The notes under the pieces were generated by a model. The model had not been told where the DNA came from, did not search any database, and saw only the letters and a list, made by a program, of their open reading frames with translations. The position numbers were made by a program, and so were the translations under genes. Shown in pieces: positions 54,690 through 64,000 of a stretch of 64,000 bases of DNA (the first letter of the stretch is position 1; every line of letters begins with the position of its first letter). Source of the DNA: Verrucomicrobiales bacterium (GTDB taxonomy: Bacteria; Verrucomicrobiota; Verrucomicrobiia; Verrucomicrobiales; DEV007); contig PAAG01000019.1 of assembly GCA_002698785.1 (NCBI GenBank), forward strand, positions 124,001 through 188,000. Direction: 5' to 3'.

Positions 54690-55103
54690 CTACGCGACGA
54701 GCACTTCACCAGAATCTTCCTCAGCGAAAGCATGCCGTGGCGCCAGAAACTCGACACATCGTCTCTCAAGCGTCGCGAGATCCTCTTCCATGTTGGAATC
54801 GTCCACGACAAATTCACTCCATTTGGTCACGCTGCTTTCTCCTTCGAAATCGGCAAAGCACCGTTCCACCGTCGGGAGAATGATCAGTGCCAGAGAGAGG
54901 TTCCCGAAGATCTCGCAGACCCCGTCTCTTAGCGGCAGATGGCGAACCCCTGATTCCGTGTCAGTAACTTCGTCTATCTCCCGGTGAGAGACGTAAACCC
55001 AGCACCTATCCTGTAAGGACTCGAAAAAGGATTCCAGGGCACTTCTACCACTTTCCGAGTATGTCTCGGGCTGATTAATCACGATTAAAACTGACGGTTT
55101 CAT
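54690..55103 (-). CDS. Hypothetical protein
   Basis: 137 residues. It starts with a hydrophobic strand (VLIVINQ) and an acidic helix (ALESFFESLQDRCWVYVSH), with alternating strands and helices afterwards (LALIILPTVERCFADF). No signal peptide, membrane helix or named motif. It is possibly a small cytosolic alpha/beta protein. It precedes the MscS-like gene by 31 bp on the same strand, so the two may be co-expressed. Function unknown. Confidence 0.6.
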   Translation of the reverse strand: MKPSVLIVINQPETYSESGRSALESFFESLQDRCWVYVSHREIDEVTDTESGVRHLPLRDGVCEIFGNLSLALIILPTVERCFADFEGESSVTKWSEFVVDDSNMEEDLATLERRCVEFLAPRHAFAEEDSGEVLVA

Positions 55104-55394
55104 GCAGAGCGAAATTGCAAGAGATCTGCCAAGTTCGATTTTCGATCTGACTCTTCGCCGTCGTTCTTAGAAAACCGCTCTATCTTCGGGCCTCCCAGCG
55201 CTGTTACAAACCAATCCCCTTCCTATCCCCATTCACCTTTCTTCGAAATCTCGTGCAATTTGCACAACCTGAAATTCTTCCATTCGCACATTGCATAGCA
55301 CGCGCATCTACCAAACCGTAGTCGAAAGAAAGATCACTCGACGGAACCCTGAAATCTTCTTTCACTTCACACAAAATTAGAGAATAACTTGGAA

Positions 55395-57764
55395 ATGCTG
55401 GACTTCTTCAGAAAGCTCTTCGACACCTCCGATTTCCCCGCGAGGTGGAATTGCGGCAATTGGACAACAGGCCATGGATTACTCCACATCATCTCAGATA
55501 TTGTTATCTTTGCAGCTTATTTCACGATACCGATTGCACTCGCATTTATCCTTCTGAGGAAAAACAAAGAGATTCCATTCCCAAAACTCTTCTGGCTGTT
55601 CGCGATTTTCATTCTCTCCTGTGGTTTGTCCCATCTCGTTGAAGCCATCGTGTTCTGGGAACCTTGGTATCGCTTTCTCGGAATTGTGAAAGGGATTACA
55701 GCAGTTGCCTCGGCTATTACAGCAGCCGGGTTAGTCTGGTGCATACCGAAGGTGCTCGCTATGCGAGGCATCTCTGATATCCAGAAACAACTTGAGCACG
55801 TCGCCGCAAGGGAAAATGCTGCACTACGAAGAGAAAAGGCCACCAATGACCGCTTGCAGCTACTTCTCGACTCTACGGCTGAAGGTATTTATGGCATCGA
55901 CGAAAAGGGCGTCTGTACATTCAGCAACCGAGCCAGTGCTGACTTGCTCGGATATCCTGATCCCGACAGCATGATCGGGGAAAAGATCCAGGACATCGTA
56001 TTTGGTAAAAGTGACAAACACGAACCCGAGACCGCACCAGAAGAAGGTATTCTACGTCCAGCGACGCACGGGGAAATTTACCACTCTGACGAGGAGCAGT
56101 TTGCCCGAAAAGATGGAACACTCGTCCCTGTCGAATTCTGGGCATACCCCATCAAAGAAGACGAAACCCGACTGGGAGCCGTTGTCACATTCGTTGATGT
56201 CACAGCCAGAAAAGAAGCAGAGAAAGCGATTCTCGAAGCAAAGAAGGAGGCAGAGAGAGAAAAGCGGTCCGCGGAAAGAGCAAACAGGCAGAAGAGCCAG
56301 TTTCTCGCGAACATGAGTCATGAGATACGAACACCGATGAATGCGATCCTCGGATTCAGCGAACTCATGCAGGGAGTTGTCGTTTCAGAAAAGGCCGAAC
56401 AGTATCTCGGAATCATCCGGTCCAGTGGAGAGTCACTGCTGGAACTGATCAATGACCTACTTGATCTATCAAAAATCGAAGCGGGACGCATCGACTTACA
56501 TCCTGAGCCGATGGACCTGATGCAGACCGTGAACGCCTCGGTTGCGCTGGTTTCTTCGCAGGCCGAGGAAAAAGGACTCGACCTTACCATCGAGTCGCAG
56601 GCAGATCTCCCTCGCGCTGTCGTTCTCGACCGGGTTCGCTTCCGACAGATTATCGTGAATCTCTTGTCGAATGCGGTCAAGTTCACTCAAGAAGGAAACG
56701 TCGGCATCACCGTGAACGCAAGCCCTAACGAGGATCACAAAGACCAGATCGATCTGAGAGTGTCTGTCGCGGATACCGGGCGGGGAATCTCGGAAGACGA
56801 GCAGATGCAGATCTTCAAACCCTTTCACCAGGAATATCACGATGAGAAAACAGTAACGTCCGGCACCGGACTTGGGCTCAGCATCTCCAGCCGACTTGCG
56901 AGATTAATGTCGGGCAAGATCGAGTTGGAAAGCACAAAAGGAAAAGGCAGCACTTTCACTGTAGTGATACCAAACGTTCCCATTTCCGAAGCCGAAGTAG
57001 AAATGTCCAACTTCGCCAAGAGTGAGGATGTTGATTTCGATTCCATCCCGCCTTCCAGAATTCTTGTCGCCGATGACAACGAGCTGAACAGGGAGCTGAT
57101 CAGTGAGATGTTTCACCAATCTCACCATACGATACTGCTGGCTAAGGACGGCGAAGAAGCGATTTCCGTAGCAAGAAAGGAAAAGCCCGACTTAGTCCTC
57201 ATGGATGTCAGGATGCCCAAAATCGATGGTCGCGAAGCACTGCAAATCATGCGGGAAGATGGGAACCTTGATACCATCCCCATCGTCGCCGTCACCGCTT
57301 CCAGTCTTCTCAACAAGGAAAAGGCACTCCGTAACGAATTCGATGGTTACCTTCGGAAGCCATTTTCAAAACGGCAACTCTATCTGGCGATGGCCACTAA
57401 ATTGGGAACCGTTGAATCTGAGGAATCAGCCCCCAGCGAAACGAAGCCCGAAGTTTCTACCACCAATCCCGATTTACCACGCAACGAGCTCGATAAACCC
57501 GAAGAATGGCTCAGTCTCGTCGATGAGTTGGTTGAGCTTGAAAACACCTCGTGGAAAGAGGTCTCCAAATCGCAGTCCACACACGCCGTCCGGGAGTTCG
57601 CACGCAACCTGTTGCGCCTGGCAGACCAATACAGCTGTCATGCCTTGAACGAGTATGCTTCTGAATTGATAGAGCATGCCGAGGGTTTCAATCTTCACGA
57701 ACTCGACAGGGAAATACGCCGCTACCCCGAGATGGTGGAATGGATCAGAAACGAAGCAAAGTGA
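55395..57764 (+). CDS. Hybrid histidine kinase with ethylene-receptor-like sensor
   Basis: 789 residues from the ATG at 55395. Residues about 27-120 hold three membrane helices. Helix 1 has ISDIVIFAAYF (Asp35, Tyr42) and helix 2 has FAIFILSCGLSHLVEA, giving Cys76 and His80 in a Cys-x3-His pair. These match the copper/ethylene-binding domain of plant and cyanobacterial ETR1-type receptors. A PAS domain (about 145-265), a coiled linker, HisKA with MSHEIRTPMNAILG, HATPase with N/G boxes (FRQIIVNLLSNAVKF, VADTGRGIS), and a receiver domain (ILVADDNE, phospho-Asp in LVLMDVRMPKIDG, K in GYLRKP) follow. The C-terminal 90 residues are helical and HPt-like but lack a clear phospho-His. Confidence 0.9.
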   Translation: MLDFFRKLFDTSDFPARWNCGNWTTGHGLLHIISDIVIFAAYFTIPIALAFILLRKNKEIPFPKLFWLFAIFILSCGLSHLVEAIVFWEPWYRFLGIVKGITAVASAITAAGLVWCIPKVLAMRGISDIQKQLEHVAARENAALRREKATNDRLQLLLDSTAEGIYGIDEKGVCTFSNRASADLLGYPDPDSMIGEKIQDIVFGKSDKHEPETAPEEGILRPATHGEIYHSDEEQFARKDGTLVPVEFWAYPIKEDETRLGAVVTFVDVTARKEAEKAILEAKKEAEREKRSAERANRQKSQFLANMSHEIRTPMNAILGFSELMQGVVVSEKAEQYLGIIRSSGESLLELINDLLDLSKIEAGRIDLHPEPMDLMQTVNASVALVSSQAEEKGLDLTIESQADLPRAVVLDRVRFRQIIVNLLSNAVKFTQEGNVGITVNASPNEDHKDQIDLRVSVADTGRGISEDEQMQIFKPFHQEYHDEKTVTSGTGLGLSISSRLARLMSGKIELESTKGKGSTFTVVIPNVPISEAEVEMSNFAKSEDVDFDSIPPSRILVADDNELNRELISEMFHQSHHTILLAKDGEEAISVARKEKPDLVLMDVRMPKIDGREALQIMREDGNLDTIPIVAVTASSLLNKEKALRNEFDGYLRKPFSKRQLYLAMATKLGTVESEESAPSETKPEVSTTNPDLPRNELDKPEEWLSLVDELVELENTSWKEVSKSQSTHAVREFARNLLRLADQYSCHALNEYASELIEHAEGFNLHELDREIRRYPEMVEWIRNEAK

Positions 57765-57776
57765 GACACCTGCTCA

Positions 57777-59147
57777 CTATTTATTCCAGCGAGCAGGATA
57801 CCCTCTCGTATCCACGTGAATAAATGGGTTTCGATAATTCTTCACGCTGTAAAATCCTAAACCACCCATCAGATACCGAGTTCCGGCACTCACTTCTTCC
57901 ACCGCTCTCTGGATGAATTCCGCATCGGCATCGTCAACCGATCCGCTGAAATCGAGGTCATCAATTTTCCCATCCCGGTTTGCATCGACAAACAGATCGG
58001 CGGCATCACCGTAAAGGTGACGGCTGTAGCTCGTCTTGTTACCGATCGCGTAATTATACGCAGGGGTGCGATATCCACTGGAGATGTAGAGGTTCGACGC
58101 ATCTCGTCCGCTTGCTTCGAGTTCTTCGATCAAGTTCTCCAACTTCAAGAGCAACCGCGTGTCGACTAACATGTATTTTGGAAAATCCGCCTCCTGCTTG
58201 CAGACGAACTGGCTGAGCTGGAGGTGCGGCGAAAGCCAGGAATCAACATTCTCCTCTGTCACCTCGATAAATCCCCTCGGTTTCTTGTACCGTGGATTCC
58301 CGCGAAAAGGTTCATCCTGATATTTTCCAATACGATAGCCGTTCACATACTCAGAATCCCCATCCCAAGGCTGCATTACCGCCAGGTGGATACACATCAT
58401 ATTCTCAGAGTCCACTTGCTTAATCTTCAGGCAGCATATCCCGGGCTTCTGTGGGGCCTTCCAGGTTGCGCTGTCACCATCGGACTCGATCAATTTCCCT
58501 TTATCGGCCTCAAATTGAAACCGTTCCGTATCCAGATTCTCTATCACATTCACCGTGAAAAGGTCTCCCGGAAGGGTCGATGCGGTCATTAGTGACCACT
58601 CGCTGGTAATTCCATCAAACTCCACGGTAAACCCAGACTTGGTTGCTCCTTCTCTCGTCTTCAGAGAAATCGACTCCTTCATCGTCTTTTTGAAGATCTC
58701 ATCGCAGATATCGATCTCTTCGACAGGCACTTGCTCTGCATCTGGCACGCGATCTTCCACCTCCCCTTTTCCTCCCGTTGCTTCATCGGGTACCTCATCG
58801 GTAACGACGACCTCCTGCGTTCCTTCTGCAGCAAGTTCCGGAGCAACGTCTTCTAAAGGAGAGTCACCGACGTCGGAAACACTCGCCGCGACGGCATCGA
58901 CTGACGTATCAGAATCATCCCCTACCTCTGAGGCTTGCCCTTCTTCCGGCTCTGATGTGGATTGAACAGTTTCTGGAACCTCGGGCTCGTTCACAGTATT
59001 CCCAACCTGCGTAGAACCGGCCTTTTTGCCCTCCGTGCTTGGTTGTTCCATCCACACTACCAATGCCCATCCAATCGCAAGGCCCAGAGGCAGCGTAGCG
59101 ATGGAAATTGCTATATCCCGGAATCTTCGCTGGCTCTTGGGATTCAT
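57777..59147 (-). CDS. M15-type D,D-peptidase-like exported protein
   Basis: 456 residues. An N-terminal membrane helix (IAISIATLPLGLAIGWALVVWM) is followed by a long acidic linker rich in Glu, Val and Pro. A beta-rich middle part follows, and then a C-terminal domain of about 150 residues: LYISSGYRTPAYN, YSRHLYGDAADL, and NPFIHVDTRGYPARW. The S-G-Y-R-x-P, S-x-H-x-x-G-x-A-x-D and H-V-D zinc-site pattern fits M15/DUF882-type D,D-carboxypeptidase or D,D-endopeptidase folds. The start overlaps the upstream stop (ATGA). It is the third gene of the peptidoglycan operon. Confidence 0.85.
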   Translation of the reverse strand: MNPKSQRRFRDIAISIATLPLGLAIGWALVVWMEQPSTEGKKAGSTQVGNTVNEPEVPETVQSTSEPEEGQASEVGDDSDTSVDAVAASVSDVGDSPLEDVAPELAAEGTQEVVVTDEVPDEATGGKGEVEDRVPDAEQVPVEEIDICDEIFKKTMKESISLKTREGATKSGFTVEFDGITSEWSLMTASTLPGDLFTVNVIENLDTERFQFEADKGKLIESDGDSATWKAPQKPGICCLKIKQVDSENMMCIHLAVMQPWDGDSEYVNGYRIGKYQDEPFRGNPRYKKPRGFIEVTEENVDSWLSPHLQLSQFVCKQEADFPKYMLVDTRLLLKLENLIEELEASGRDASNLYISSGYRTPAYNYAIGNKTSYSRHLYGDAADLFVDANRDGKIDDLDFSGSVDDADAEFIQRAVEEVSAGTRYLMGGLGFYSVKNYRNPFIHVDTRGYPARWNK

Positions 59148-61672
59148 TCGGCAGCACCTCCAGTGGCTTTTACGTCCTCCCGAGCTGCCCAGGGATTTCC
59201 TCCGATCACAATGTCTACCTTCGGCAAAACAGGCTGCGAGCGCTCAAAAAGGTTGGGCTCGACCTCAGCTTTCGTCAGGTTAATGGTCTGCGTCTTCTCG
59301 TGAACACCGCAGATCTTTTTCTGATCCACCTCAAGGCCTTTCCAAGTTAAATCTCCTAGCTTTGTGTGGGCGCAGTGTGGACCGGCCGGGGCTCCCGAAA
59401 CCATACAGACCCACCGGTTTCCAATATCACCCGCCTGACTCGGCTCCTCAGCCGAAGGGCCTGAGCTGGTAACATATTGGAGAGTGCTTTGCCCTGCTCC
59501 GATCACGGAACCGACAGCAGACCAGAGAGGCAAAGCAGTGTCTACGGAGAAAACTGACTCCGCAATTGGCTTAGGCTTGTCGAAGCCGATCCAGACACCC
59601 CAGACATATTGATCATTGTAGCCGACAAACCAGGCGTCTTCCTGGCCATGTGACATGCCGTTTCGCCCTGCAACTTTTCCTGCCAAGTTTCCAACACCAG
59701 CCCTAACAGGCAGCACTTCAGGAACGCGAGTAAGAACTCTATTCATCTTCTCTGCCGTCTCGGCAGACACCACTTGCGGGGACAACTCCGTGCCTGAAGC
59801 CGTGTAAATAACGCTCCCCTCCTTGTCTTCGATCTTTGCAACCAATCGCAGTTCGGGCGAAAGACTTCCGCCGTTCGGAAAAACGGAATACGTCCGCACG
59901 AATTCATGAAAGCGAACAGCGCTCTCACCAAGAAAGGTGTTAGGGTAACCCGTGGTCTCGCTAGTGATTCCAAAGTCGGCCAGCTTCTCGGAAAAGGACT
60001 CCACCCCGAACGGTTGCGCTGCCCTTACAGTAGCACCATTCTTGTTGGCTACCATCGCATAGAGAGCTGTAATTTCTCCCTCAAAGTCGTTCTCACCCCT
60101 CTCTGCTCCCCACTCACCCAACATTCCCTCCTTGCCTCCGATCATGACCTTTCGATTGTCCATGGGTGCATCCAGAAGCTTCGTCGAGAGTCTCAGTTGG
60201 CCGGCATCCAGCAAAGAAGCGTACAACAACGGTGTAATCGCAGTACCCGGTTTCCTCTTCGCCTGCCAGACTCTATCAAATTGGCTATCCGCAAAGTCAC
60301 GCCCCCCAACTGCCACTTCGACGTCCCCAGTTATACGATCAAACACCAGGCAGGCACCCTGAAGGTAATCTGAGGAGTCCGAACCATTTGCGACCATGCT
60401 TTGACGTGAAGCATGGGTAAAACCGTTGATCGACTCGATCTGCCTCAGATTTCGGTCGAGCAAATCCTTCACCGCTCTCTGTTGCTCCAGATTTACGGAA
60501 GTGTGGATCGTCAGCCCTTCGAGGTCAGTGTATTGGCCTAACACATCGAGAGCCTCCCGGCGAATCGCTGCGAGCAAGTAGTTTGGTCGCTCTTCCTTGG
60601 CGCGCTCCTTCGACGCTTCGAGATCGGTGGAAGCGAATTCGTCATATTCCTTTTCAGAAATCATCCCCAAAACCTGCATCCTTTCCAAGGTTCGGTTTCT
60701 CGCCGCCTCTGCCTTATCCGGATTTCTGAACGGAGAAAACCGTGTGGGACTTTTGATGATCGCGCACAGGGTGGCCGCTTCGGGTAGAGTGAGATTCTTG
60801 GCATCTTTCCCGAAATACCCGTTCGCAGCGGCCTCCACTCCCCAATACCCAGAGCCGAGGTAAATACGGTTCAGGTAGTGGGTTAATATTTCCTCTTTGG
60901 TAAATCGCTCCTCAATCCGCTTCGCGATAAATATCTCCAAAAATTTCCTGTCGAATGTCCGTCCTCCAATATCGAACGAGTGTCGGGCAAGTTGTTGGGT
61001 AATCGTGCTCCCCCCTTGACTGATCCCACCGGCCTTCAAATTCGCTAGTGCAGCCCTGGCAATCCCCTTAAAGTCGACACCGTCATGCTCAAAAAACCGA
61101 CTATCCTCGGTTGCCACCAGCGCATCAATCAGATGCTGAGGGACTCCGTCGAGGGAAATCTTTCGTCGGTCTCGGAGAGTGACTTGCCCAATCTCTTTTC
61201 CGGTCACATCAACAGCTATGGAACCGCCTTCCACGAGCCCCACGGTGTCGAGATCATACTTTTCCGCTCGCTCTTTGTATTGAAGAGCGATCACAAGAAC
61301 CGCCGGAACACACAGGGCCAGCAAGAAGAGAACTACGATCGAACTGACCAATATACGATTCCGGTTTGCTCGAAAAAACTTCTTCACAGGACTACCACCA
61401 TTCTGCACGCCTGTACCGACACCGCCCCTCGGCTCTTGCGTCGTGTTCCGCTCTACCTCCCGTCCATGGGAAATCGGAATCTTCGAGTACGCGGAAGTTT
61501 CACCGGTCGTCTGAGAATCCGCTTCAGGTTCAGTATTGTTTCGCTGCTGCGGCCGCGAGTCGTCTTCATCGCGTGTCGCCCGGTTGTCTTTCTGGAAGTC
61601 AGAAAAGGAATAGTCCTTCGGTAAGCCCTCGGGCCTCCCCTCCGGTTCACTGGGTCGCTTGTCACTGCTCAT
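59144..61672 (-). CDS. PBP1A-like glycosyltransferase with degenerate transpeptidase domain
   Basis: 842 residues. Cytoplasmic low-complexity tail (1-100), membrane helix (about 108-130), then a complete GT51 glycosyltransferase (about 175-350): ATEDSRFFEHDG with catalytic Glu189, GGSTITQQL, and IEERFTKEEILTHYLNRIY. The following penicillin-binding domain (about 430-720) has lost its three active-site motifs: S-x-x-K is TAIT (Thr477, Thr480), S-x-N is NKN (543-545), and K-T-G is KVA (666-668). It should therefore polymerise glycan strands but not cross-link them. Its start overlaps the PBP2-like stop (ATGA), so the two are coupled. Confidence 0.92.
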   Translation of the reverse strand: MSSDKRPSEPEGRPEGLPKDYSFSDFQKDNRATRDEDDSRPQQRNNTEPEADSQTTGETSAYSKIPISHGREVERNTTQEPRGGVGTGVQNGGSPVKKFFRANRNRILVSSIVVLFLLALCVPAVLVIALQYKERAEKYDLDTVGLVEGGSIAVDVTGKEIGQVTLRDRRKISLDGVPQHLIDALVATEDSRFFEHDGVDFKGIARAALANLKAGGISQGGSTITQQLARHSFDIGGRTFDRKFLEIFIAKRIEERFTKEEILTHYLNRIYLGSGYWGVEAAANGYFGKDAKNLTLPEAATLCAIIKSPTRFSPFRNPDKAEAARNRTLERMQVLGMISEKEYDEFASTDLEASKERAKEERPNYLLAAIRREALDVLGQYTDLEGLTIHTSVNLEQQRAVKDLLDRNLRQIESINGFTHASRQSMVANGSDSSDYLQGACLVFDRITGDVEVAVGGRDFADSQFDRVWQAKRKPGTAITPLLYASLLDAGQLRLSTKLLDAPMDNRKVMIGGKEGMLGEWGAERGENDFEGEITALYAMVANKNGATVRAAQPFGVESFSEKLADFGITSETTGYPNTFLGESAVRFHEFVRTYSVFPNGGSLSPELRLVAKIEDKEGSVIYTASGTELSPQVVSAETAEKMNRVLTRVPEVLPVRAGVGNLAGKVAGRNGMSHGQEDAWFVGYNDQYVWGVWIGFDKPKPIAESVFSVDTALPLWSAVGSVIGAGQSTLQYVTSSGPSAEEPSQAGDIGNRWVCMVSGAPAGPHCAHTKLGDLTWKGLEVDQKKICGVHEKTQTINLTKAEVEPNLFERSQPVLPKVDIVIGGNPWAAREDVKATGGAAE

Positions 61673-63825
61673 CGAATTTTTTGCGGTGTCGGGTTAGTCT
61701 CTGTGGCGCGATATTGGATGGAAGGAATCGTCCTTGGTTCTCCCATTTCGGTCTGAGACACAGGCACAGATCGCAACCGGCGATCGTTACTTTCCTGAGC
61801 TTGCTGGGTTTCAATCGGCCTTCCCTGCATTGACTGGCTCGTTTCCGGATAGCCTCGTTGCTGTTCAGGAACACCTTGTCCCGTCGGATATTGCGTAGGT
61901 TGCTGAGTATCGCGCAACTGCCGCCCCGGAACGTATCTGGTTCTGTTAGTCCCCGGCAAAACATCGTTTGAGAAAGGATTGTCTGGCTCGTCCACAGTAA
62001 TTTCGACATGATACTTTTCCTGGTCGGAATACACCGAGTTCACCCACTTGCCCACTAACGGAGCGGCATCCTTTCCGCCTGACAATGATTCACCGGGCTT
62101 GCCTTCCACCATGCAGGCAAAAGCGATCCGTGGAGAATTCGAGCCAACATATCCAACAAACCAGGCAACGTTGCTTTCTCGCTTCCACTGAGCTGTCCCG
62201 GTTTTTCCATACACCTGCGGGAGTGGATGGGCGGCCGCTTTTCCAGTCCCTCGATCATGGTTTACGACTCCCCACATTCCTGAGCGAACAGAAGTACGAT
62301 CGCCTGTCCGTGTATTGAGACGTTGGAATTTCCTCGGTTCGTTTGAATCGATAATCGCGTTCGTCAAAGGATCCTGTGTCTGGATGACCAGCCGGGGCTC
62401 AGGAACAGCAGTGCCAGAGGAAAGCCCCGCCATGGCCAAAGCCATTTGCAGAGGCGTTGCGTCTATCTCTCCCTGACCGATCGCAAAGTTTGCCACGGCT
62501 TGGTTTGCCAGAACGTTTTTCTCCTCAGGAAGATTCCCTGCAGAGGTGGGCAACTCTATCCCCGGCGCATGCCCCAGGCCGAAATGCTTTGCAGCGGAAA
62601 GCAAAAACGGACCTCCAGTCCTCATTCCTGCCTGATAAAACCACGTATTTGAAGAGCGCAGCAGCGCATACCTCACGTCGAGCATTCCTTCGTCATCACT
62701 GTTCCAGTTACGGAAAGTTCTTCCGTCAATATCAAGTGATGACGGGCTCGGCAGCCGGGTCCATCTACTGACCGCTCCCCGATCCAGCGCGGCAAGAGCC
62801 ACGATCGGTTTAAAAGTCGACCCCGGCGGATAGGCTGACATAGTTGCTCGAGGAATCAGAGGGTTTGCAGGATCATCCTGCAGCTCTTGGTAGCGTTTTG
62901 CAGAGATCCCACGCGTAAACAGCCCCGGATTGAAAGAAGGATAGCTGGCAAGCGCCAAAATATCTCCAGAGATGGAATCGACTGCCACAAAAGCGCCAGG
63001 CCTCCCATTTTCTTTGAGAGTATCGTATGCTAATCGCTGCATTGGCTCGACCAACGACGTTACAATAGTTTGTCCTGGGACAGCTGGTTGGATCAGCTCC
63101 AAGTCAGTCAATTCACCATTCTTCGTGTAAATGTAACTGACGACTCCGTTCTTTCCCGCCAACTTATTTTCCAAAGCCTTCTCAAGTCCCTGGACAGGCT
63201 CGTAAGGGGGCCAAAGCATCTCGGGATCGGATAGGGGCCCGTGCTGAAATGGTTTAGAAGGGCGGAGATAACCCACAACATGAGCGAACGATTCTCCTGC
63301 CGGATACTCTCGTGTGAAAACAGCCTCCAGTTGGAGATATCTCGAATTGCCAGCCAACTTTTCCAGTTCGCTGGCGTCTTCATCACTCAGGGATTCTGTT
63401 AGTGGGAATGGAACGAGTGGACGGTGCTCCCAATGTTGAGCAAATTTTTCCGAATCGATTGTGATCCGGGCAAGCTTTGGAAACTCACCGAGGGCTTTCA
63501 TAACCGCAGTCTGAGCTGCAGCAGGTCCATCATGCTCCCTCAGTTGCTGTAATCGAATGGCTAAGTAGGAGGACGCCTTTGTTACCGCGAGAGGTTCACC
63601 GTAACGATCCGTAATGATTCCTCTGGGGGCCGGAACCTCGAAAAGAACCGGCTGCAACTCCTCTTCCGACTCAACCGGAGCTCCCCTTGAATCATCGGAG
63701 TCGACGAGTGTTTCGACGAGTTGCGCAGCTTGTAATACCTCCGCACAGACTGGAGCAGGTAACACTGCTGTCCAGACAACTGCCAGTGTCAGCAAGAATA
63801 AAACGGAGAACTGAGAGAGATTCAT
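61669..63825 (-). CDS. PBP2-like transpeptidase
   Basis: 718 residues from the ATG at 63825. A signal peptide or anchor (NLSQFSVLFLLTLAVVWTAVLP) is followed by the PBP-dimer domain (APRGIITDRYGEPLAV) and a complete transpeptidase domain: PPGSTFKP (Ser336, Lys339), LLRSSNTW (S-x-N, Asn393) and YGKTGTAQW (Lys541). It cross-links peptidoglycan during elongation or division. The C-terminus carries about 80 residues rich in Gln and Pro (TQYPTGQGVPEQQ) that are not part of the enzyme. It is the first gene of the operon and supplies the catalytic site its partner lacks. The SEDS partner (RodA or FtsW) is not in this window. Confidence 0.93.
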   Translation of the reverse strand: MNLSQFSVLFLLTLAVVWTAVLPAPVCAEVLQAAQLVETLVDSDDSRGAPVESEEELQPVLFEVPAPRGIITDRYGEPLAVTKASSYLAIRLQQLREHDGPAAAQTAVMKALGEFPKLARITIDSEKFAQHWEHRPLVPFPLTESLSDEDASELEKLAGNSRYLQLEAVFTREYPAGESFAHVVGYLRPSKPFQHGPLSDPEMLWPPYEPVQGLEKALENKLAGKNGVVSYIYTKNGELTDLELIQPAVPGQTIVTSLVEPMQRLAYDTLKENGRPGAFVAVDSISGDILALASYPSFNPGLFTRGISAKRYQELQDDPANPLIPRATMSAYPPGSTFKPIVALAALDRGAVSRWTRLPSPSSLDIDGRTFRNWNSDDEGMLDVRYALLRSSNTWFYQAGMRTGGPFLLSAAKHFGLGHAPGIELPTSAGNLPEEKNVLANQAVANFAIGQGEIDATPLQMALAMAGLSSGTAVPEPRLVIQTQDPLTNAIIDSNEPRKFQRLNTRTGDRTSVRSGMWGVVNHDRGTGKAAAHPLPQVYGKTGTAQWKRESNVAWFVGYVGSNSPRIAFACMVEGKPGESLSGGKDAAPLVGKWVNSVYSDQEKYHVEITVDEPDNPFSNDVLPGTNRTRYVPGRQLRDTQQPTQYPTGQGVPEQQRGYPETSQSMQGRPIETQQAQESNDRRLRSVPVSQTEMGEPRTIPSIQYRATETNPTPQKIR

Positions 63826-64000
63826 TTCCCGTTCCGAATTGCACAACACGTACCATCGCCCCCTTGCTTATCCCACAAGGCCTCACGGTCCGCGCTTTGG
63901 AAAGTTCAGTGCAAGATGCACGAAGCCCACACTACATTATGCAACAAAGACCGCAGCCGATTGGAATATCATCAGGACCGCCCAATCAAGGGGGATTTTC

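Follow-up and report, generated by a model that had tools for sequence, protein, structure and literature searches.

By the textbook account, class A penicillin-binding proteins (PBPs) are bifunctional enzymes that polymerise and cross-link peptidoglycan, while class B PBPs work with SEDS polymerases. Cooperation between the two classes is on record: pneumococcal class B PBPs (PBP2b and PBP2x) cross-link when given a class A PBP2A whose transpeptidase was inactivated by engineering (PMC4632607), and a well-known functional parallel is PBP2A acting with PBP2 in methicillin-resistant Staphylococcus aureus (MRSA) (PMC12369386). Here we describe a natural locus that pairs the two classes in a window of 64,000 nucleotides (positions 124,001 to 188,000 of contig PAAG01000019.1, hereafter C22:124001-188000) from the 7.0 Mb draft genome of a Verrucomicrobiales bacterium. 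A PBP1A-like protein whose GT51 transglycosylase site is intact and whose transpeptidase motifs are lost is encoded directly behind a PBP2-like class B PBP that retains all of them. We consider it probable that the two form a two-subunit peptidoglycan synthase, in which the PBP1A-like protein polymerises, its dead but folded transpeptidase domain acts as a scaffold, and the class B partner cross-links. The parts and class A-class B cooperation are already known; in the literature searched we found no account of a natural, conserved loss of class A transpeptidase motifs combined with a dedicated class B partner, in operon and in fusion.

A class A PBP without its transpeptidase motifs beside a class B PBP that keeps them

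Three minus-strand open reading frames follow one another in the transcription order PBP2-like (63825-61669), PBP1A-like (61672-59144) and M15-type peptidase (59147-57777). An earlier note on this DNA, made from the sequence alone, had proposed an operon with ATGA overlaps, and both junctions bear this out. The span it gave, 59144-63825, leaves the M15 gene outside. The features are as follows, with positions counted in the window.

61669..63825, minus: PBP2-like class B PBP, PBP_dimer and transpeptidase domains, triad intact; 718 amino acids from ATG, with a possible GTG start at 63849
62809..62820, minus: intact SxxK (S336-T-F-K339)
62647..62655, minus: intact SxN (S391-S-N393)
62197..62205, minus: intact KTG (K541-T-G543)
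61669..61672, minus: ATGA overlap, PBP2-like stop and PBP1A-like start
59144..61672, minus: PBP1A-like protein, 842 amino acids, GT51 motifs intact, transpeptidase motifs lost
60674..61201, minus: GT51 transglycosylase domain, residues 158-333 (Pfam)
59513..60358, minus: pseudo-transpeptidase domain, residues 439-720 (Pfam 6.9e-10, AlphaFold, Foldseek)
60233..60244, minus: lost SxxK, T477-A-I-T480 (alignment to Pseudomonas aeruginosa PBP1A, 4oon, SSFK there)
60038..60046, minus: altered SxN, N543-K-N545 (alignment to 4oon, SRN there)
59669..59677, minus: altered KTG, K666-V-A668 (alignment to 4oon, KTG there)
59144..59147, minus: ATGA overlap, PBP1A-like stop and M15 start
57777..59147, minus: M15-type peptidase, 456 amino acids

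The PBP1A-like protein matches Pfam Transgly strongly (8e-62) and Transpeptidase weakly (6.9e-10). Its GT51 domain is 53-71% identical to those of the other five members of a six-row alignment, A1, and E189-D190, S222, T223, T225, Q226 and Q227 are invariant across all six rows. Pfam and the alignment to 4oon uphold the earlier reading of an intact GT51 site beside an SxxK changed to TAIT, an SxN changed to NKN and a KTG changed to KVA. What is kept is the SxN asparagine and the KTG lysine; the nucleophile and the SxxK lysine are gone.

The degenerate domain is predicted to fold. The structure prediction that the earlier note had proposed yielded a mostly confident transpeptidase fold: across residues 441-720 of the AlphaFold model, the predicted local distance difference test score (pLDDT) is 75-95 in 25 of the 28 ten-residue blocks; it falls to 57-67 at 461-470 and at 511-530, and averages 71.4 over the whole protein. 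The top Foldseek matches of the model are Escherichia coli PBP1b and Acinetobacter baumannii PBP1a. Between the window protein and the other five A1 members, the pseudo-transpeptidase is 36-52% identical. The protein scores below cut-off on both relevant NCBIfam models, with 431.3 bits for PBP_1a_fam (cut-off 508.75) and 134 bits for the MtgA-type model mono_pep_trsgly (cut-off 182.65); unlike MtgA, it has the transpeptidase fold. Sequencing error and recent decay were both rejected, because the frame is open over 842 amino acids and relatives in other genomes, down to 37% identity, also lack the SxxK lysine.

The PBP2-like protein carries PBP_dimer (2.3e-20) and Transpeptidase (1.7e-53) domains and, as had been claimed, all three catalytic motifs (S336-T-F-K339, S391-S-N393 and K541-T-G543). 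Its score on the NCBIfam MrdA equivalog is 360.1 bits, under the cut-off of 455. The live transpeptidase sits in a protein that has PBP_dimer and groups with class B PBPs, and the class A protein retains a transpeptidase fold of its own; we therefore reject the idea that the pair is a single class A gene split into halves. The earlier description of a split class A PBP thus fails as an account of origin. As an account of function it stands: that one protein polymerises and its partner cross-links is well supported by comparative genomics.

By eye, the N-termini of paired class B proteins read as a signal peptide followed by a linker. All 19 that were put to a crude (-3,-1) rule satisfy it, but so do 6 of 10 MrdA/FtsI controls, and the rule does not separate the two groups. 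If this N-terminus is a cleavable signal peptide, membrane attachment of the class B protein would depend on the class A protein.

Loss of the class A lysine recurs at all paired loci

We sought the PBP1A-like protein in 56 related genomes and ran a profile search in 386 genomes of the order, scoring two candidates per genome. On that scoring the window's own subtype (at least 854 bits; next value 718) is rare, occurring in 6 of 386 genomes: the window's own genome G000 (twice), G005, G006, G007, G009 and G168. Named close relatives of the operon come from Verrucomicrobiales metagenome-assembled genomes (L112 to L115). In total, 175 unique class A sequences were compared, the window's included.

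A class A protein adjoins a class B PBP at 22 loci, counting the window (17 genomes and two named contigs). The SxxK lysine is lost from the class A protein in 22 of 22, replaced by leucine (11), isoleucine (3), phenylalanine (3), alanine (3) or threonine (2), while SxxK, SxN and KTG are all intact in the class B partner at each of the 22. By contrast, serine and lysine are both present in 21 of 21 proteins of a canonical class A comparison set. The other class A motifs have decayed less evenly: the serine survives in 14 of 22, SxN in 14 of 22 and KTG or KSG in 11 of 22, where two proteins (L192 and L130) count as lacking KTG only because their contigs end before that region. In the G168 protein the lysine alone is lost (SAFL, SKN, KSG). 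Judged by these motifs, transpeptidase decay is graded, with the window protein, which has lost all three, at the far end. The earlier note had asked whether close relatives keep their motifs; we saw no paired relative with complete transpeptidase motifs.

One pair, L128:848-5136 (bacterium CG_2015-01t_44_12), is reversed, class A preceding class B, and its class A protein reads PAFL with no SxN and no KTG. In the class A and class B trees alike it sits on a long branch away from the other pairs, and it may represent a second coming together of the two genes.

Natural fusions join the two proteins in one chain

Class A and class B profiles match a single reading frame in 9 of 141 genomes of the class, spread over six families. 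Ten such proteins were fetched, and G483 holds a second copy with the same score beyond those ten. Each runs from GT51 through a dead transpeptidase to a PBP dimerisation domain and a live transpeptidase in a single chain, 1261-1411 amino acids long (contig ends truncate L266 at its start and L270 on both sides). The SxxK lysine and KTG are absent from the N-terminal half, and the triad is intact in the C-terminal half, of 10 of 10 proteins. Pfam, run on four of the ten, returned Transgly, PBP_dimer and Transpeptidase. The fused halves form clades of their own, with support of 98 in a 71-row GT51 tree and 100 in a 53-row class B tree. A chain uniting a dead class A protein with a live class B protein is our best evidence that they work as a single machine.

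Scoring only two candidates per genome, a phylum search with the fusion profile matched in 2 of 387 genomes, one match being a separate class B gene, and so yields no prevalence estimate; when all candidates were scored, the fusion was found in 9 of 13 genomes. Separate class B genes in G408 (C104:3276-5351, 1096 bits) and G419 (C1:1284008-1285723, 716 bits) match the class B half of the fusion profile, and are possibly split versions of the fusion.

A second operon and a shortfall of SEDS partners

The window's genome carries a second operon at C22:53.8-59.2 kb, encoding a PBP2-like protein with an intact transpeptidase, a PBP1A-like protein and a YkuD L,D-transpeptidase. This second PBP1A-like protein reads FAFA, GKN and EVA where SxxK, SxN and KTG are expected, and Pfam detected no transpeptidase domain in it at E 0.001. 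The genome encodes seven GT51 proteins, comprising the two motif-dead operon members, four with intact motifs and one altered. The last of these is unlinked (L022:5547-9029, at C48:67 kb) and reads TVFK, SKN and KSG, with threonine for serine and the lysine kept.

A class B PBP2 commonly has a RodA gene nearby. We found no RodA/SEDS partner near the operon, which lies on C22; in this draft assembly the genome's two SEDS proteins are on C17 and C12. There are five class B PBPs (on C12, C51 and C27, and two on C22), so at least three of them must lack an exclusive SEDS partner. A single SEDS protein is encoded in G042, whose genome, from another family, is one contig, and likewise in each of G046, G048 and G054 of the same genus (g4). 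Of the two class B PBPs of G042, an FtsI-like protein is encoded ~7 kb from the SEDS gene and the other is of an unlinked kind (below). This unlinked class B PBP thus apparently lacks a dedicated SEDS protein, and its polymerase is likely to be a GT51 enzyme.

Unlinked relatives share their genomes

Class A trees used the GT51 region alone, so that transpeptidase decay cannot drive the grouping. The first held 107 of the 175 unique class A sequences (sequences with under 150 GT51 residues were omitted, as were most of the canonical and tandem loci), and the second 71 rows, a hand-picked subset plus the fusions. The first class B tree had 46 rows (48 unique sequences minus the truncated L222 and L211); the second had 53, with nine of the 46 left out and 16 new ones added.

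Apart from L128, the paired class A proteins fall together with two from cut contigs in one clade of the 107-row tree (23 rows, Shimodaira-Hasegawa-like approximate likelihood ratio test (SH-aLRT) support 95). The paired class B proteins, again minus L128, form one clade in the 46-row tree (21 of 22, SH-aLRT 99), apart from transmembrane-anchored MrdA and FtsI. The sister of that clade is a group of unlinked class B proteins (C51 type; 8 rows, 99; joint support 84), and in the 107-row tree a group of unlinked class A proteins is likewise sister to the paired ones (91). The unlinked class A proteins have threonine for serine in 50 of 52; the lysine is lost in 26 of the 52 and kept in 26.

In a sample of 141 genomes of the class, each at least 90% complete, with limits of at least 617 bits for unlinked class B (next 532) and at least 821 bits for unlinked class A (next 668), both occur in the same 47 genomes, and neither occurs at those scores in the other 94. 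None of the nine fusion genomes is among the 47.

We lean, by a modest margin of confidence, towards a broader proposal: that much of the class possesses a wall synthase in which a GT51 pseudo-transpeptidase polymerase recruits an anchor-less class B PBP, encoded as unlinked genes, operon or fusion. Such a synthase would be of a third kind, additional to bifunctional class A PBPs and to pairs of SEDS and class B proteins.

Proposed mechanism and competing explanations

In the proposed two-subunit synthase, the PBP1A-like protein would be anchored in the inner membrane and polymerise lipid II through GT51. Its dead, still folded transpeptidase domain would serve as a scaffold that positions the class B partner. 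That partner, encoded just upstream, would be the cross-linking subunit, joining the nascent strand to the old wall, much the role that the second domain plays in an ordinary class A PBP. The third gene would supply an accessory wall enzyme that varies among operons. What the sequences show directly is the state of the motifs, the open frames, the gene order, the conservation, the fusions, the co-occurrence and the predicted fold; GT51 activity, transpeptidase activity, physical contact and the scaffold role are inferred. The proposal rests on the coupling of lysine loss with an intact partner triad at 22 of 22 loci, against canonical serine and lysine in 21 of 21, together with the second operon, the fusions, the separate class B clade, the SEDS shortfall, the co-occurrence in 47 of 141 genomes and the pneumococcal precedent.

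Several observations pull the other way. The 22 paired loci are not independent: L198, L201 and L202 are near-identical, and most loci come from one genus. Only the lysine loss is universal, serine being kept in 14 of 22 class A sequences and KTG or KSG in 11. AlphaFold modelled the PBP2-like protein poorly (mean pLDDT 58.6). A single origin of the paired and unlinked transpeptidase-altered class A proteins is unstable to sampling and we do not claim it: in the 71-row tree, with fusions and other outgroups, the paired proteins stand next to canonical ones (85) and the sister relation to the unlinked group is not recovered. The 47-of-47 co-occurrence mostly mirrors taxonomy, the bit-score limits behind it were chosen once the gaps had been seen, and joint absence was noted in one genus only, g65, where G454 has both unlinked forms and G401 and G409 (0.9 Mb genomes) have neither. 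Finally, E. coli PBP2 is reported to have failed to cross-link with a transpeptidase-dead PBP1A, so pairing alone may not suffice; it did aid attachment when PBP1A and sacculi were present (PMC4632607).

An unlikely alternative is that the PBP1A-like protein is a monofunctional polymerase of the MtgA sort, its dead domain ballast, the operon a regulatory convenience and the class B protein a worker with SEDS. Monofunctional GT51 enzymes are common, the GT51 site here is intact, and 52 of the 76 rows in the transpeptidase-altered clade of the 107-row tree have no adjoining class B gene in the flank seen (flanks going down to 1.5 kb). A useless domain should be lost, however, and this one is predicted to fold and remains 36-52% identical across A1; the fusions, moreover, tie a dead class A protein to a class B PBP, and the only two SEDS genes lie on other contigs.

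We give very little credence to a second alternative, in which the altered site is a changed transpeptidase using T477 or another residue as nucleophile. The fold is kept, and a threonine nucleophile is conceivable among the unlinked relatives, with their 50 of 52 threonines and 26 of 52 lysines. Yet the window protein is also missing the lysine, the serine of SxN and both the T and the G of KTG, and the serine position is F or P in two paired relatives. It is equally improbable that the pseudo-transpeptidase is a regulator that senses peptides, beta-lactams or a partner and gates GT51 while another enzyme such as an L,D-transpeptidase cross-links: YkuD genes do occur directly downstream in the genome's second operon and near the G006 operon, and the unlinked class B gene of G042 is immediately preceded by a gene (L226:2-418) with SHGCIR, a motif of YkuD L,D-transpeptidases, but the neighbour in 22 of 22 pairs, like the fused partner, is a class B PBP and not YkuD.

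The third gene and the surroundings

That the third gene encodes an M15-type peptidase was correctly read: Pfam Peptidase_M15_3 (PF08291) matches at 8.9e-07, with 29.5 bits against a threshold of 23.2. H377 and D384 lie within SRHLYGDAAD and H444 further on, and we take these three to be the zinc ligands. Resemblance to the MepK equivalog is weak (23.6 bits, cut-off 185). The proposal that trimming by this enzyme is a fixed part of the system is not supported. The third gene is M15 in G000, G006, G007 and G168, YkuD in the second G000 operon, and something else in the remaining pairs whose contigs continue; with its identity varying in this way, we claim neither M15 nor YkuD as a fixed third part. 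The 3-3 cross-links that YkuD enzymes form are cut by MepK, a hint from which we conjecture that both G000 operons handle 3-3 cross-links.

Other genes accompany these loci. Three lysine-less pairs, L193, L194 and L196, are followed directly by a gene for an uncharacterised protein of ~830 amino acids, which shares 4 bases with the class A gene; at several other pairs that downstream position is taken by a gene for a small membrane protein. In the window, a hybrid histidine kinase gene on the plus strand (55389-57764) faces the operon and has homologues beside the operon in G006 and G007, as, weakly, does a small protein at 54690-55103. Just past the window's right end, a gene upstream of the PBP2-like gene and divergent from it (L021:10208-11023) looks OmpA-like by eye and has a weak homologue at the same place in G168 (1.4e-08).

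A second kind of transpeptidase-dead class A protein (L131, for example L131:8190-9899, L161, L181 and others) occurs in Akkermansiaceae-type genomes, directly behind a canonical PBP1A gene. These proteins are mostly ~569 amino acids long and have GT51 with DLGSAFEP or similar in the SxxK region; lysine and KTG were absent in 10 of 10 rows checked.

Comparison with known systems

Evolution appears to have turned a class A transpeptidase into a scaffold and passed cross-linking to a class B enzyme. With purified proteins, such pairs would make testable what a class B transpeptidase requires of a polymerase in order to cross-link, and for structural studies the natural fusions offer single-chain material. 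In these bacteria, a match to GT51 plus transpeptidase should be checked for its motifs before a protein is called a bifunctional enzyme or a beta-lactam target. In the titles and abstract openings that we searched, where subscription papers and preprints are scarcely covered, we found no description of a class A PBP that is naturally transpeptidase-dead and has a class B PBP as its paired or fused partner.

The PBP1A-like protein shares with bifunctional class A PBPs (E. coli PBP1b, 5hlb; P. aeruginosa PBP1A, 4oon) an N-terminal anchor-like helix, GT51 and a transpeptidase fold in the same order, and differs in its lost transpeptidase motifs and in falling under the PBP_1a_fam cut-off. As in MtgA, GT51 is its sole expected activity; unlike MtgA, it keeps a folded transpeptidase domain and has a gene for a transpeptidase partner. 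The PBP2-like protein resembles class B PBP2/MrdA in having PBP_dimer and a transpeptidase with an intact triad, whereas it scores below that family's cut-off, belongs to a clade separate from the genome's transmembrane-anchored MrdA, and neighbours a GT51 gene instead of rodA. In MRSA, where PBP2A (mecA) works with the glycosyltransferase domain of PBP2, a drug blocks the native transpeptidase; in the present case mutation has abolished it, and the two genes adjoin each other, or are fused in relatives. In the E. coli PBP1A-PBP2 and pneumococcal PBP2b/2x-PBP2A pairs the class A enzyme is naturally bifunctional, whereas in the verrucomicrobial pairs the dead state is natural and conserved.

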